A DNA stretch of 64,000 nucleotides from Sulfurovum sp. 16-42-52 (GTDB taxonomy: Bacteria; Campylobacterota; Campylobacteria; Campylobacterales; Sulfurovaceae). The position numbers were made by a program, and so were the translations under genes. Position 1 is the stretch's first letter, and every line of letters begins with the position of its first letter. Below, piece after piece: positions 51,778-55,705 of this stretch. The notes below the pieces were generated by a model, which saw only the letters and a program-made list of their open reading frames with translations, was not told where the DNA came from and did not search any database. The stretch spans positions 1 through 64,000 of the forward strand of contig NCHB01000007.1 in the NCBI GenBank assembly GCA_002281755.1, given 5' to 3'.

Positions 51778-53184
51778 ATGCATAAAACCATTCTCTTTGA
51801 CCAGCTCACACCCGTTGCTCTCTATGCAAAGATTAAAGAACTATTTGCAGATGAGATTACCATGCTTTTTGAGTCTGTGGTCAATACCAATGAGGGTAAT
51901 TTTTCTTTCATTGCCATAGGTGCACAGGAACGTCTAAGCTACAAAGATGAAACCAGTACCTATACAGATACAAAAGGGGTACAAAAAATCCTCAAAGAAG
52001 ACCCTTTTTCTTTTCTAAAACGCTATTATCAAAACATTGATCAAGCAGCCTATAAAGAGAAATCCGATGCACTTGGTTTTTCATTTGTGGATGGATTTAT
52101 CGGTTTTATAGGGTATGATATGGTCAAGGTATTTGAGCCTGTACTCAAAGAGAGTATGGATCACCTACCCGATCCGCTCAGTACACCTGATTTGGATCTG
52201 ATACGTCCCAAAATCATCATTGCCTATTCTCACAAAAATGCAAAATTGACACTAATTTTAAATGATGCCTCTATGGAAGCTGGTATTGCTTCTATCGAAA
52301 AAATTCTCATAGAACCTTTCATCCCTACTTCGCTTCAAGCAGTAAAGCTTGAGGGTGAAGGCACGTTTAGTATTGAGGAAGAACGTTTTAAGACTTTGGT
52401 TGACGAATCCAAAGAAAGTATCCGCTCGGGTGATATTTTCCAGATTCTTCTTTCAAACCGATACACGCAGCAAGGTAAAATCGATCCGCTTAGTTTTTAC
52501 AGGGTTTTACGCTCAAAAAATCCCTCCCCCTATCTCTTTTTGCTTGACTATGAGGATTTTTCCATATGCGGCTCTTCTCCTGAAGTCATGGTGCGTCTGA
52601 GTGAAGGTGAGATACTGCTCCGCCCCATCGCGGGCACAAGAAAACGCGGTAAAAACCACCACAGAGACCGAGAACTTGAACTTGAAATGCTCTCCGATCC
52701 CAAAGAGCGTGCAGAACACTTAATGCTCATAGACTTGGGGCGCAATGATGTAGGTAGGGTTGCCAAAACAGGCACCGTAGAAGTCACTTCGATGATGCGT
52801 GTTGAAAAGTACTCCCATGTTATGCACATGGTATCAGATGTGGAAGCCGTACTGCAAGAAGACAAAGATATGTTTGATCTGTTTGCTGCTACCTTTACCG
52901 CCGGAACCATGACCGGTGCACCCAAAATAGAAGCCATGAAGCTCATCGCAGCGTATGAAAACCTCAAGCGTGGCTTTTACTCAGGTTCAGTGGGCTATTT
53001 TGCCTTTAATGGAAACATGGACTCCGCCATAGCCATTCGTACTGCACTCATCAAACCAGACAGCATTACACTACAAGCAGGTGCAGGTGTGGTTGCAGAC
53101 TCACAGCCTGAGCTTGAGTACCTTGAAGTCAAAAATAAACTAGGGGCACTCTTGTCTACACTTAAAGAGATGGAAACGCTTTAA
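51778..53184 (+). CDS. trpE: Anthranilate synthase component I-type protein
   Basis: A chorismate-utilising enzyme of 468 residues. The core contains LLRPIAGTRKRG, ERAEHLMLIDLGRNDVGRV, VEKYSHVMHMVSDVE, FTAGTMTGAPKIEAMK and GSVGYFAFNGNMDSAIAIRT. Ala in PIAGT is typical of anthranilate synthase; aminodeoxychorismate synthases usually have Lys there (PIKGT). It would pair with the amidotransferase at 4671. It stands apart from any trp operon, between the SPOR and surface-protein genes, an insertion relative to C. jejuni. A hairpin at 53186-53216 follows. Confidence 0.88.
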   Translation: MHKTILFDQLTPVALYAKIKELFADEITMLFESVVNTNEGNFSFIAIGAQERLSYKDETSTYTDTKGVQKILKEDPFSFLKRYYQNIDQAAYKEKSDALGFSFVDGFIGFIGYDMVKVFEPVLKESMDHLPDPLSTPDLDLIRPKIIIAYSHKNAKLTLILNDASMEAGIASIEKILIEPFIPTSLQAVKLEGEGTFSIEEERFKTLVDESKESIRSGDIFQILLSNRYTQQGKIDPLSFYRVLRSKNPSPYLFLLDYEDFSICGSSPEVMVRLSEGEILLRPIAGTRKRGKNHHRDRELELEMLSDPKERAEHLMLIDLGRNDVGRVAKTGTVEVTSMMRVEKYSHVMHMVSDVEAVLQEDKDMFDLFAATFTAGTMTGAPKIEAMKLIAAYENLKRGFYSGSVGYFAFNGNMDSAIAIRTALIKPDSITLQAGAGVVADSQPELEYLEVKNKLGALLSTLKEMETL

Positions 53185-53243: not shown

Positions 53244-53275
53244 TTGACATACCCCCCCCCATATTTGGCTATACT
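53244..53275 (+). promoter_or_regulatory. Promoter with a C9 tract between -35 and -10
   Basis: A consensus TTGACA (53244-53249) and a near-consensus TATACT (53270-53275) flank a 20-nt spacer containing nine consecutive C residues (53252-53260). The start codon of the secreted Ig-like protein is 31 nt downstream. At C9 the spacer is 3 nt above the 17-nt optimum; slippage to C6-C7 would restore it. This matches promoters controlled by phase variation in other Gram-negative bacteria. Confidence 0.75.
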
Positions 53276-53306
53276 CTAAAATAAAATACATTTTAGAGGA
53301 AAGAAT

Positions 53307-54536
53307 ATGAAAACACATTACACAACAATAGTTATATTTTTTTTAAGTACAACCTTTCTTTTTGCAAATACAGGCACAGAACAAACACACCCGCAAAGCA
53401 GTATCCCTACACCATCTGCAACAGATGTTAAAACTGATATCACTCCTACATTTGTATTTGACAAAGTAGTTCTAAAAGAGTCTATAGGAATAAACACTAT
53501 CCAACTGGGGCAACTTACCCCTAAAAAAAATAAAATCAACGGCACAACAAGTGTTGTAGATAACACCACGCTACTCTTTGTACCTTCAGAGCCTCTGCCA
53601 AAAGGCACTTACGACATCAAAGTAAAACCCATCAAACTACTCAATGAAAAACAATCAAGCCTAAAATCAAAGAGTACAGCACAAAAGATAACAGCATGGC
53701 TTTGTGGTCTTGCGTATGATGACATCAGTGAATGTCCACTGTATGAACTTGTGTTTGATGTGCCTAAAACCACAACAACTAAGCCCATACACTACACTTT
53801 TGAAGTCACACAAGAAGCCACCAAAGTTATCGCGTTACACGCCGACACAACACGCATAGAACTTTCGGAGTACAACACTACCCAACTCCACATCACAGCC
53901 ACCTATGAGGACAACACAAACGAAGATGTCACCCAAAAAGCAACCTATAGTAGCAGTAATGGCTCTGTGGATGTCACTCAAGGAGTTGTTACCAGCAACG
54001 ATGAAGGTTCTGCCATTGTTACAGTAAGCTATGCAGATAAAACTATTCAAGTCACCGTAGAAGTCTATGAGATGATAGAAGGTCACCTCTTACCACATGA
54101 ACCACAAGACCCTGATGCCACACTTCTTGGTGTAGATGCCAATAGCAATGGGGTAAGAGACGAAGTAGAACGCTGGATCTACAAAGAGATGACCACCTAT
54201 CACCATCCAGAGATAGAGAGAGTGATAGCGATGCAAGATGCCAAAGCCTATCAGATGGCTTTGGTGGATCCTGCTAATACAGATGATAAGGTGAATATTG
54301 CCCTAACAAGGGCTGGTGACTGTTGGGATCATTATCGTCATAGTAAAGACTTACCATTTGATGGAGCAGTGGAGAAGTATAGTAATGCGCTAAGAGATGC
54401 ACTATTTAATACAAGAGAACGCTTAAAAACCTATATGGATTATGATGCTACATTAGGAGGCAAGGTATTTACCCTAACTCCAACCTATTTACTCAACACA
54501 AGCTATTGTGATGCAAATATTGATGTATTGCCATAA
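53307..54536 (+). CDS. Secreted Ig-like domain protein
   Basis: A 409-residue exported protein: signal peptide (ending FLFANT), a bacterial-Ig (Big_5-like) region with the FVFDKVVLKESI...LLFVPSEPLPKGTYDIKVKP pattern (about 45-115), then a Big_2-like domain (EATKVIALHADTTRIELSEYNTTQLHITATYEDNT..., about 175-262). The C-terminal part opens with LGVDANSNGVRDEVERWIYKEM, a calcium-loop-like motif, and is helical. Surface or extracellular location is likely. Expression may be phase-variable through the promoter C tract. Cotranscribed with the hydrolase gene (11-nt gap). Function unknown. Confidence 0.72.
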   Translation: MKTHYTTIVIFFLSTTFLFANTGTEQTHPQSSIPTPSATDVKTDITPTFVFDKVVLKESIGINTIQLGQLTPKKNKINGTTSVVDNTTLLFVPSEPLPKGTYDIKVKPIKLLNEKQSSLKSKSTAQKITAWLCGLAYDDISECPLYELVFDVPKTTTTKPIHYTFEVTQEATKVIALHADTTRIELSEYNTTQLHITATYEDNTNEDVTQKATYSSSNGSVDVTQGVVTSNDEGSAIVTVSYADKTIQVTVEVYEMIEGHLLPHEPQDPDATLLGVDANSNGVRDEVERWIYKEMTTYHHPEIERVIAMQDAKAYQMALVDPANTDDKVNIALTRAGDCWDHYRHSKDLPFDGAVEKYSNALRDALFNTRERLKTYMDYDATLGGKVFTLTPTYLLNTSYCDANIDVLP

Positions 54537-54547
54537 GGGAGAGTAGA

Positions 54548-55705
54548 ATGAAAAAGATACTTTTAATGTTAATTGTTGCATCTATTTCTGTTTTTGCGAA
54601 GCCTTGCACGACGGATATCTATTTTGGTAATGGGATATGGAATACGGAAACCCAAGCAAAAGAAAGTATGAGAGAACTTAGATGGTTTATGCAACACACT
54701 GCCATCACCCCACTCTCAATAGAAGATGAAAAAAACCAACTCTATAGTTTTAAGCTCGCCTATAACTACTCAACGGGTGCATTGACTGATTTGATTGAGA
54801 CTTACTGGCAATTAAGAGAGAGTGGTCAAATTAGCGAAGGGTATTTTCAAATCATAGCTGCAACTTTGGTTACAAATAATGGTGCAAGTAGCCATGAAGA
54901 GATTTTGGCACAAATTCGTTATGTTGTTGCCTATGAGAGTGCTAATATTGAGACAATGTATCAACTCTACAATAACGCCAGCTTCAGTCAAAAACACAAT
55001 GTACTACTTGTAGCACACTCTCAAGGAAATCTTTTTGGCAATAAAATGTACACGTTGATGAGTGATGCCCAAAAAAATAAGTTTCGCATGGTTTCAGTCG
55101 CAACACCTGCCGATAGTGTCGCAGGAGGAGGTCCATACGTAACAGCTTCAGGGGATTATGTTATTAATTCAATTCCTAATGTTTTGCCAAGTAATGTAGA
55201 TGGATTTGGTCATACTTTTATAGGGACTTATCTGAATGGTTCTATCAATGCTCCTAGAAAAATAGCACTGTATGTCAAAAGCGCGTATGACAATCTTATT
55301 CAAACTACAAATTGTACAGAGGGAAGTTATTCCTATTATGTTTGGATAGGTTATCAGTGTCCTAGGCGTAGTCCTCAAGAACTGATTATTGATATCTATG
55401 GTCTTCCCGTAGATTCTCCATATCCCTACAATAAACAACTTGTTACATCTGATAGTAGAATACGAATGCCTTATGAGACTATTAATGGCAATGAAGTATG
55501 TACTATATCAGGAAATGATGTATACTCATGGTGGAGTGAATACGACAAAGACGGCTGTTATGCTTACACCCTAGATGATAATCATCCCGCAGGAACACAT
55601 ACTTTTGACTACATAGCAAGCACAACATACTATAACGGTACACTCTGTACAAAATATCAAATGAATTCTGAGATTGCTGATGAGTTAAACAGCATGTTAC
55701 CCTAG
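54548..55705 (+). CDS. Secreted alpha/beta-hydrolase-like protein
   Basis: A 385-residue protein with a signal peptide (cleavage near SVFAKP). The nucleophile elbow is LLVAHSQGN with Ser158; Asp189 (ATPADS) and His222 (GFGHTF) are suitably placed to complete a catalytic triad, suggesting a lipase- or esterase-like enzyme. The C-terminal region (about 250-385) is rich in Tyr and Cys (at least five Cys), likely disulfide-bonded. It is encoded directly behind the Ig-like protein, so both probably act together at the surface. Substrate unknown. Confidence 0.7.
   Translation: MKKILLMLIVASISVFAKPCTTDIYFGNGIWNTETQAKESMRELRWFMQHTAITPLSIEDEKNQLYSFKLAYNYSTGALTDLIETYWQLRESGQISEGYFQIIAATLVTNNGASSHEEILAQIRYVVAYESANIETMYQLYNNASFSQKHNVLLVAHSQGNLFGNKMYTLMSDAQKNKFRMVSVATPADSVAGGGPYVTASGDYVINSIPNVLPSNVDGFGHTFIGTYLNGSINAPRKIALYVKSAYDNLIQTTNCTEGSYSYYVWIGYQCPRRSPQELIIDIYGLPVDSPYPYNKQLVTSDSRIRMPYETINGNEVCTISGNDVYSWWSEYDKDGCYAYTLDDNHPAGTHTFDYIASTTYYNGTLCTKYQMNSEIADELNSMLP

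Follow-up and report, generated by a model that had tools for sequence, protein, structure and literature searches.

Phase variation through promoter tracts has been described mainly in host-adapted pathogens, for which immune escape offers the explanation. In Neisseria, the fetA (frpB) promoter features a poly-C tract between the -35 and -10 elements, which ranges from C10 to C14 across gonococcal strains (PMC5320596), and a poly-G tract in the spacer of the porA promoter of Neisseria meningitidis is cited in the same article (van der Ende 1995, cited in PMC5320596). In the fim2, fim3 and fimX promoters of Bordetella pertussis, poly-C is located between the activator site and the -10 element (PMC10172299; PMC1891110). 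In these promoters, several tract lengths were found in one culture and a one-base change led to loss of expression (PMC10172299), and for fimX a single base matters in a short C7/C8 tract (PMC1891110). Sigma-70 promoters of Campylobacter jejuni feature an extended -10 element and a periodic A/T signal with no clear -35 box (PMC3656092). For Sulfurovum, our literature search found no open-access paper combining the genus name with "phase variation".

The window, i.e., the whole 64-kb stretch of Sulfurovum DNA analysed here, contains a predicted promoter with a C9 run between a -35-like hexamer and a -10 element (Table 1). Read from the window sequence, its order is CTC-TTGACA-TA-CCCCCCCCC-ATATTTGGC-TATACT-CTAAAA, with the C9 inside a spacer of 20 nt. 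A G is found two positions before TATACT, as in extended -10 elements, and the ATG of gene 1 at 53307 is preceded by AGAGGAAAG. The locus is located downstream of trpE, which ends at 53184 and is followed by an 11-bp inverted repeat; aroE comes next after gene 2, following a gap of 176 nt. The first-pass annotation had placed both hexamers, the tract and the 20-nt spacer correctly, as confirmed in the sequence, and had described the downstream genes as a surface-protein operon encoding secreted proteins. Both products have apparent signal peptides, which supports their predicted secretion, and the surface label goes beyond this evidence.

Table 1. Features of the C-tract promoter and the two-gene operon in the window.
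Feature	Position	Strand	Remarks
TTGACA, -35-like hexamer	53244..53249	+	Same hexamer in G051 and G019; G088, G087 and G086 differ
C9 homopolymer tract, proposed slippage site	53252..53260	+	C5+ at like position in 15/22 N-terminal homologs
TATACT, -10 element	53270..53275	+	TATACT or close variant in all aligned family promoters
Inverted repeat CTCTAAAA..TTTTAGAG	53274..53298	+	Spans start region and Shine-Dalgarno sequence
Gene 1, secreted 409-aa protein (predicted)	53307..54536	+	Ig-like domains; DxNxNGxRDxVER motif in C-terminal domain
Gene 2, secreted 385-aa lipase/cutinase-like hydrolase (predicted)	54548..55705	+	AHSQG elbow; separated from gene 1 by 11 nt

The predicted structure of the gene 1 product (pLDDT 77) matched best to Ig-like domains of LigA/LigB and of S-layer proteins, and Big_5 is present in 7/12 family members. 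A Pfam match to OpcA (E 0.04) was below the cut-off and was disregarded. For gene 2, the best PDB match was a lipase, followed by cutinases; owing to the low confidence of this model (pLDDT 56), we propose only a lipase/cutinase-like core. In the G051 ortholog of gene 1 (L044), a frameshift occurs near an A7 run about 150 nt into the gene, in the N-terminal part, which represents either an assembly error, a pseudogene or a second slippage site. Moreover, RNA reading through positions 53274-53298, i.e., the longer transcript, gave a fold z of -4.1, and RNA beginning 7 nt after the -10 element showed no structure in the fold test. The hairpin would consequently form only in RNA reading through from upstream and could block translation, the Shine-Dalgarno sequence being covered. 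G086 retains the hairpin, as does G088 with another sequence in the stem.

Homologs were collected by searching 78 Sulfurovum genomes with a profile, and their upstream regions were read. Among the 22 homologs whose match starts at the N-terminus of gene 1, 12 have a run of at least six C (C6+) just upstream of the -10 element, in several promoter backgrounds (15/22 for C5+), compared to 0/518 other upstream regions of the genome to which the window belongs. This association corresponds to a p of about 1e-17, or 3e-6 with rough promoter backgrounds counted once, on a tally of homologs and backgrounds made by hand, with one species as comparison background and with some family members first found via promoter similarity. 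A C5 run is lacking upstream of five N-terminal Ig-like-type homologs and in G087, and stand-alone C-domain paralogs and lipoprotein-type homologs are without the tract. No relative was found on viral contigs, leaving virus-borne copies unsupported. The C tract thus goes with the gene family, forming a length-variable and evolutionarily kept element of the predicted promoters. In a homolog from a Campylobacteraceae MAG (L137), a G7 run directly before TGTATAAT, upstream of position 226, marks a possible tract promoter using the other base.

The family promoters differ in the context of the tract. Class 1 comprises the window (TTGACA-20-TATACT, C9), G051 (TTGACA-20, C9), G019 (TTGACA-20, C6), G088 (TTGCTA-16, C5), a paralog in G087 (TTACTG-16, C5), G086 (weak -35, C7) and G087 (TTGCTA-21, CCC only), and its flanks are more diverged than those of class 2 and class 3. 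In G019 the run is shortened and interrupted and the 20-nt distance is still held; selection may act to keep this distance constant. Like that of the window, the G088 locus follows trpE; G051, G019 and G087 carry locus and trpE on separate contigs, and the class 1 promoter thus seems to travel together with its gene. On the minus strand of L047 (G019), the upstream region up to TTGACATACCCCCC is duplicated before a different gene (1235 and 1982), and the two copies diverge directly after the C-run.

Class 2 promoters share the layout TTGAY-N4-RTYAA, TT, Cn, 13 nt, TATACT. The box (TTGACCCAGATCAA) is palindromic and, by its sequence, FNR/CRP-like, a putative target of a CRP/FNR-family regulator, and was found in 7/7 class 2 promoters and in 4/280 upstream regions of the window's genome; it is absent from the window promoter. 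The tract is C9 in G071, G079 and G066, C8 in G072 and C10 in G015, G090 reads CCCTCCCCC, and a second, broken copy in G066 has T8C6. Across the C8/C9/C9/C9/C10 promoters, the 14-nt box shows 0-2 differences and no other length change occurs between box and -10; over the class, this distance is 23-27 nt. Class 2 proteins have their N-terminal part in common and diverge after the DDVER motif. In the gene 1 homologs L253, L251, L254, L255 and L252, the N-terminal Ig-like part is near-identical, the sequences differ strongly past DDVER and another gene comes next after each, a pattern suggestive of modular diversification. In class 3, G059 (C9) and G043 (C8) have more than 50 identical upstream bases, and further backgrounds are represented by G043b (C5) and G067 (C9). 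As read from one genome per species, tract length differs among near-identical promoters, and it does so between species only.

The explanation we favour, and consider reasonably probable on the basis of these between-species differences, is that the C9 works as a slippage-prone promoter switch leading to phase variation. The C-run would gain or lose bases during replication, which would alter the distance and the helical phase of the extended -10 element relative to an upstream contact, i.e., the TTGACA/T-rich element in the window and the TTGAY-N4-RTYAA box in class 2. Daughter cells could thereby differ in transcription of the two-gene operon. We infer all three steps of within-strain slippage, effect on transcription and biological use. 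Support for slippage comes from the contrast of 12/22 homologs with C6+ to 0/518 control regions, from the ranges C8-C10 in class 2 and C8/C9 in class 3, and from the like layout of the fetA and fim precedents. As a counterpoint, the length differences seen all lie between species. Slippage is slower in tracts of 8-10 bases than in C12-C15. Again in favour of slippage, MutL gave no match in the window's genome, whereas 14/14 control genomes gave one, and the MutS1 model had no match above the cut-off there; its below-cut-off match is a MutS-like gene with an open frame of 1005 aa (G000:C4:1961-4555, L328). This would be consistent with weak mismatch repair, by which slippage would be favoured.

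A promoter profile of the window's genome was derived from 316 predicted -10 sites, which are predictions and not mapped starts. A G two nt before the hexamer occurs at 139/316 predicted sites (extended -10, TGn), and T-frequency peaks lie 5, 15-16 and 26-27 nt upstream, i.e., about every 10-11 nt; these predicted promoters do not generally have a -35 box. TTGACA-like hexamers reach their maximum at a spacer of 20 nt (32 vs. 16.4 +/- 4.9 in the permuted-hexamer control) and show no clear excess at 17 nt (19 vs. 14.2 +/- 4.1). A similar excess is found at 10 nt too, so that T-periodicity itself drives part of the 20-nt peak. In the window promoter, TTGACA also matches the third T-peak of this Campylobacterota-type periodic signal, and the C-run stands where the T-peak at about 15 nt is expected. 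A TTGACA at 20 nt matches the phase of the T-peaks; low expression is therefore not a necessary consequence of C9, and the 20-nt distance may well represent an active state.

That the C-run is rather a fixed-function element, either a regulator contact or a rigid helical-phase spacer whose length drifts without switching, appears unlikely to us. The three class 1 promoters with exactly 20 nt at C9, C9 and C6 would fit such a role, as would the 20-nt maximum of TTGACA-like hexamers; the distance nevertheless varies within the family: G088 and the G087 paralog have 16 nt, class 2 promoters have 23-27 nt between box and -10, and a pure C-run is the most slippage-prone form, which a rigid spacer does not need. 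Even less probable is a spacer switch as in E. coli, with C6 (17 nt) as ON and C9 (20 nt) as nearly OFF state; the first-pass annotation had put forward this logic, with a 17-nt spacer at C6 and low expression predicted at C9. TTGACA and TATACT are indeed near consensus, and a 17-bp spacer in an engineered meningococcal promoter resulted in high FetA expression (PMC4577077). However, the predicted -10 sites with their TGn and T-peaks, a hexamer maximum at 20 instead of 17 nt and family promoters holding 20 nt with C9, C9 and C6 give no support for a 17-nt optimum or a low C9 state. The broader proposal of a promoter-spacer tract of the phase-variation kind keeps its conserved, length-variable tract and its fetA/porA layout, but this spacing logic is not supported. 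Two other candidates were rejected: a MerR-type 20-nt promoter, since the spacer contains no inverted repeat and 16-nt relatives exist, and a sigma-32-like CCCCAT element, whose distance to the -35 is unsuitable by inspection.

Within the 64-kb window, the C9 is the only C/G run of at least 8 (shuffled window: 0.29 matches to C8 per shuffle on average). Across the 1.99 Mb of the genome, three C/G runs of at least 9 occur, the window tract included, vs. about 1.8 expected (a scaled figure from a first-order model), which is near chance by length alone; shorter runs are depleted, with 57 observed vs. 115 expected at length 6, 7 vs. 23 at length 7 and 1 vs. 4.7 at length 8. The second long run lies between convergent genes, immediately behind the stop codon of a BamA-like gene, and the third in a gene-poor stretch, neither being a promoter tract. 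Among 519 gene-upstream regions taken from 1.28 Mb of this genome, C6+ within 130 nt of the start occurs once, in the window promoter, and C5+ in 12. It is thus the position, rather than the run length, that marks the window C9 as unusual. A neutral homopolymer falling in a promoter by chance would agree with the near-expected genome count, but is hardly credible given the family-wide association, with the tract recurring at the same place in homologs of several backgrounds.

A genome-wide regulon of TTGACA-C-TATACT promoters was also rejected, as the search of the same genome matched the window site only, and relaxed matches elsewhere in the genus look random. Likewise, the combination of C-tract and -10 does not stand out as a class across the genus or order: its matches exceed the reversed-pattern control only modestly or lie close to it, which ties the signal to the gene 1 family. 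On L257 (G018) at 949, a C9 between TTGACT and TATAAT with an 18-nt spacer precedes an unrelated small protein and represents a further C-tract promoter candidate within Sulfurovum.

With the slippage switch as preferred reading, we tentatively propose that in this free-living sulfur-oxidising lineage a whole family of diversifying operons for secreted Ig-like and lipase-like proteins could be under the control of poly-C slippage promoters, in two wirings using either a -35-like element or an FNR/CRP-like box. If true, this would be phase variation of secreted proteins outside host immunity, perhaps directed against phages, predators or rival bacteria, and the retention of a C-tract promoter throughout the family in a free-living genus would suggest pressures other than immune escape. 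The family also provides concrete loci which are testable in existing sequencing reads.

Compared to the described systems, the locus resembles fetA in its C-run within a -35-like/-10 spacer, in the gene for a secreted or outer-membrane protein downstream and in a length varying between genomes. The fetA tract is, however, longer (C10-C14 vs. C5-C9 here), its within-strain variation and effect on expression are known, whereas for the Sulfurovum tract both are predicted, and -35 boxes are not general among predicted promoters of the Sulfurovum genome. In porA, a homopolymer in the -35/-10 spacer controls the spacing, and the Sulfurovum run occupies the same position; it differs in the base on the coding strand and in porA belonging to a host-adapted organism, and the expression effect is proven in porA only. 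For class 2, the likeness is rather to the fim promoters: the box lies directly 5' of the C-run, and slippage would shift an activator relative to RNA polymerase. Here, the box is FNR/CRP-like by its sequence only, and the window promoter is without it. The predicted promoters of the window's genome show the same extended -10 and periodic profile as those of C. jejuni, with the difference that in the window promoter the C-run takes the place of the T-peak near 15 nt. The Sulfurovum tract is thus probably of the known slippage kind, as in fetA/porA or fim.
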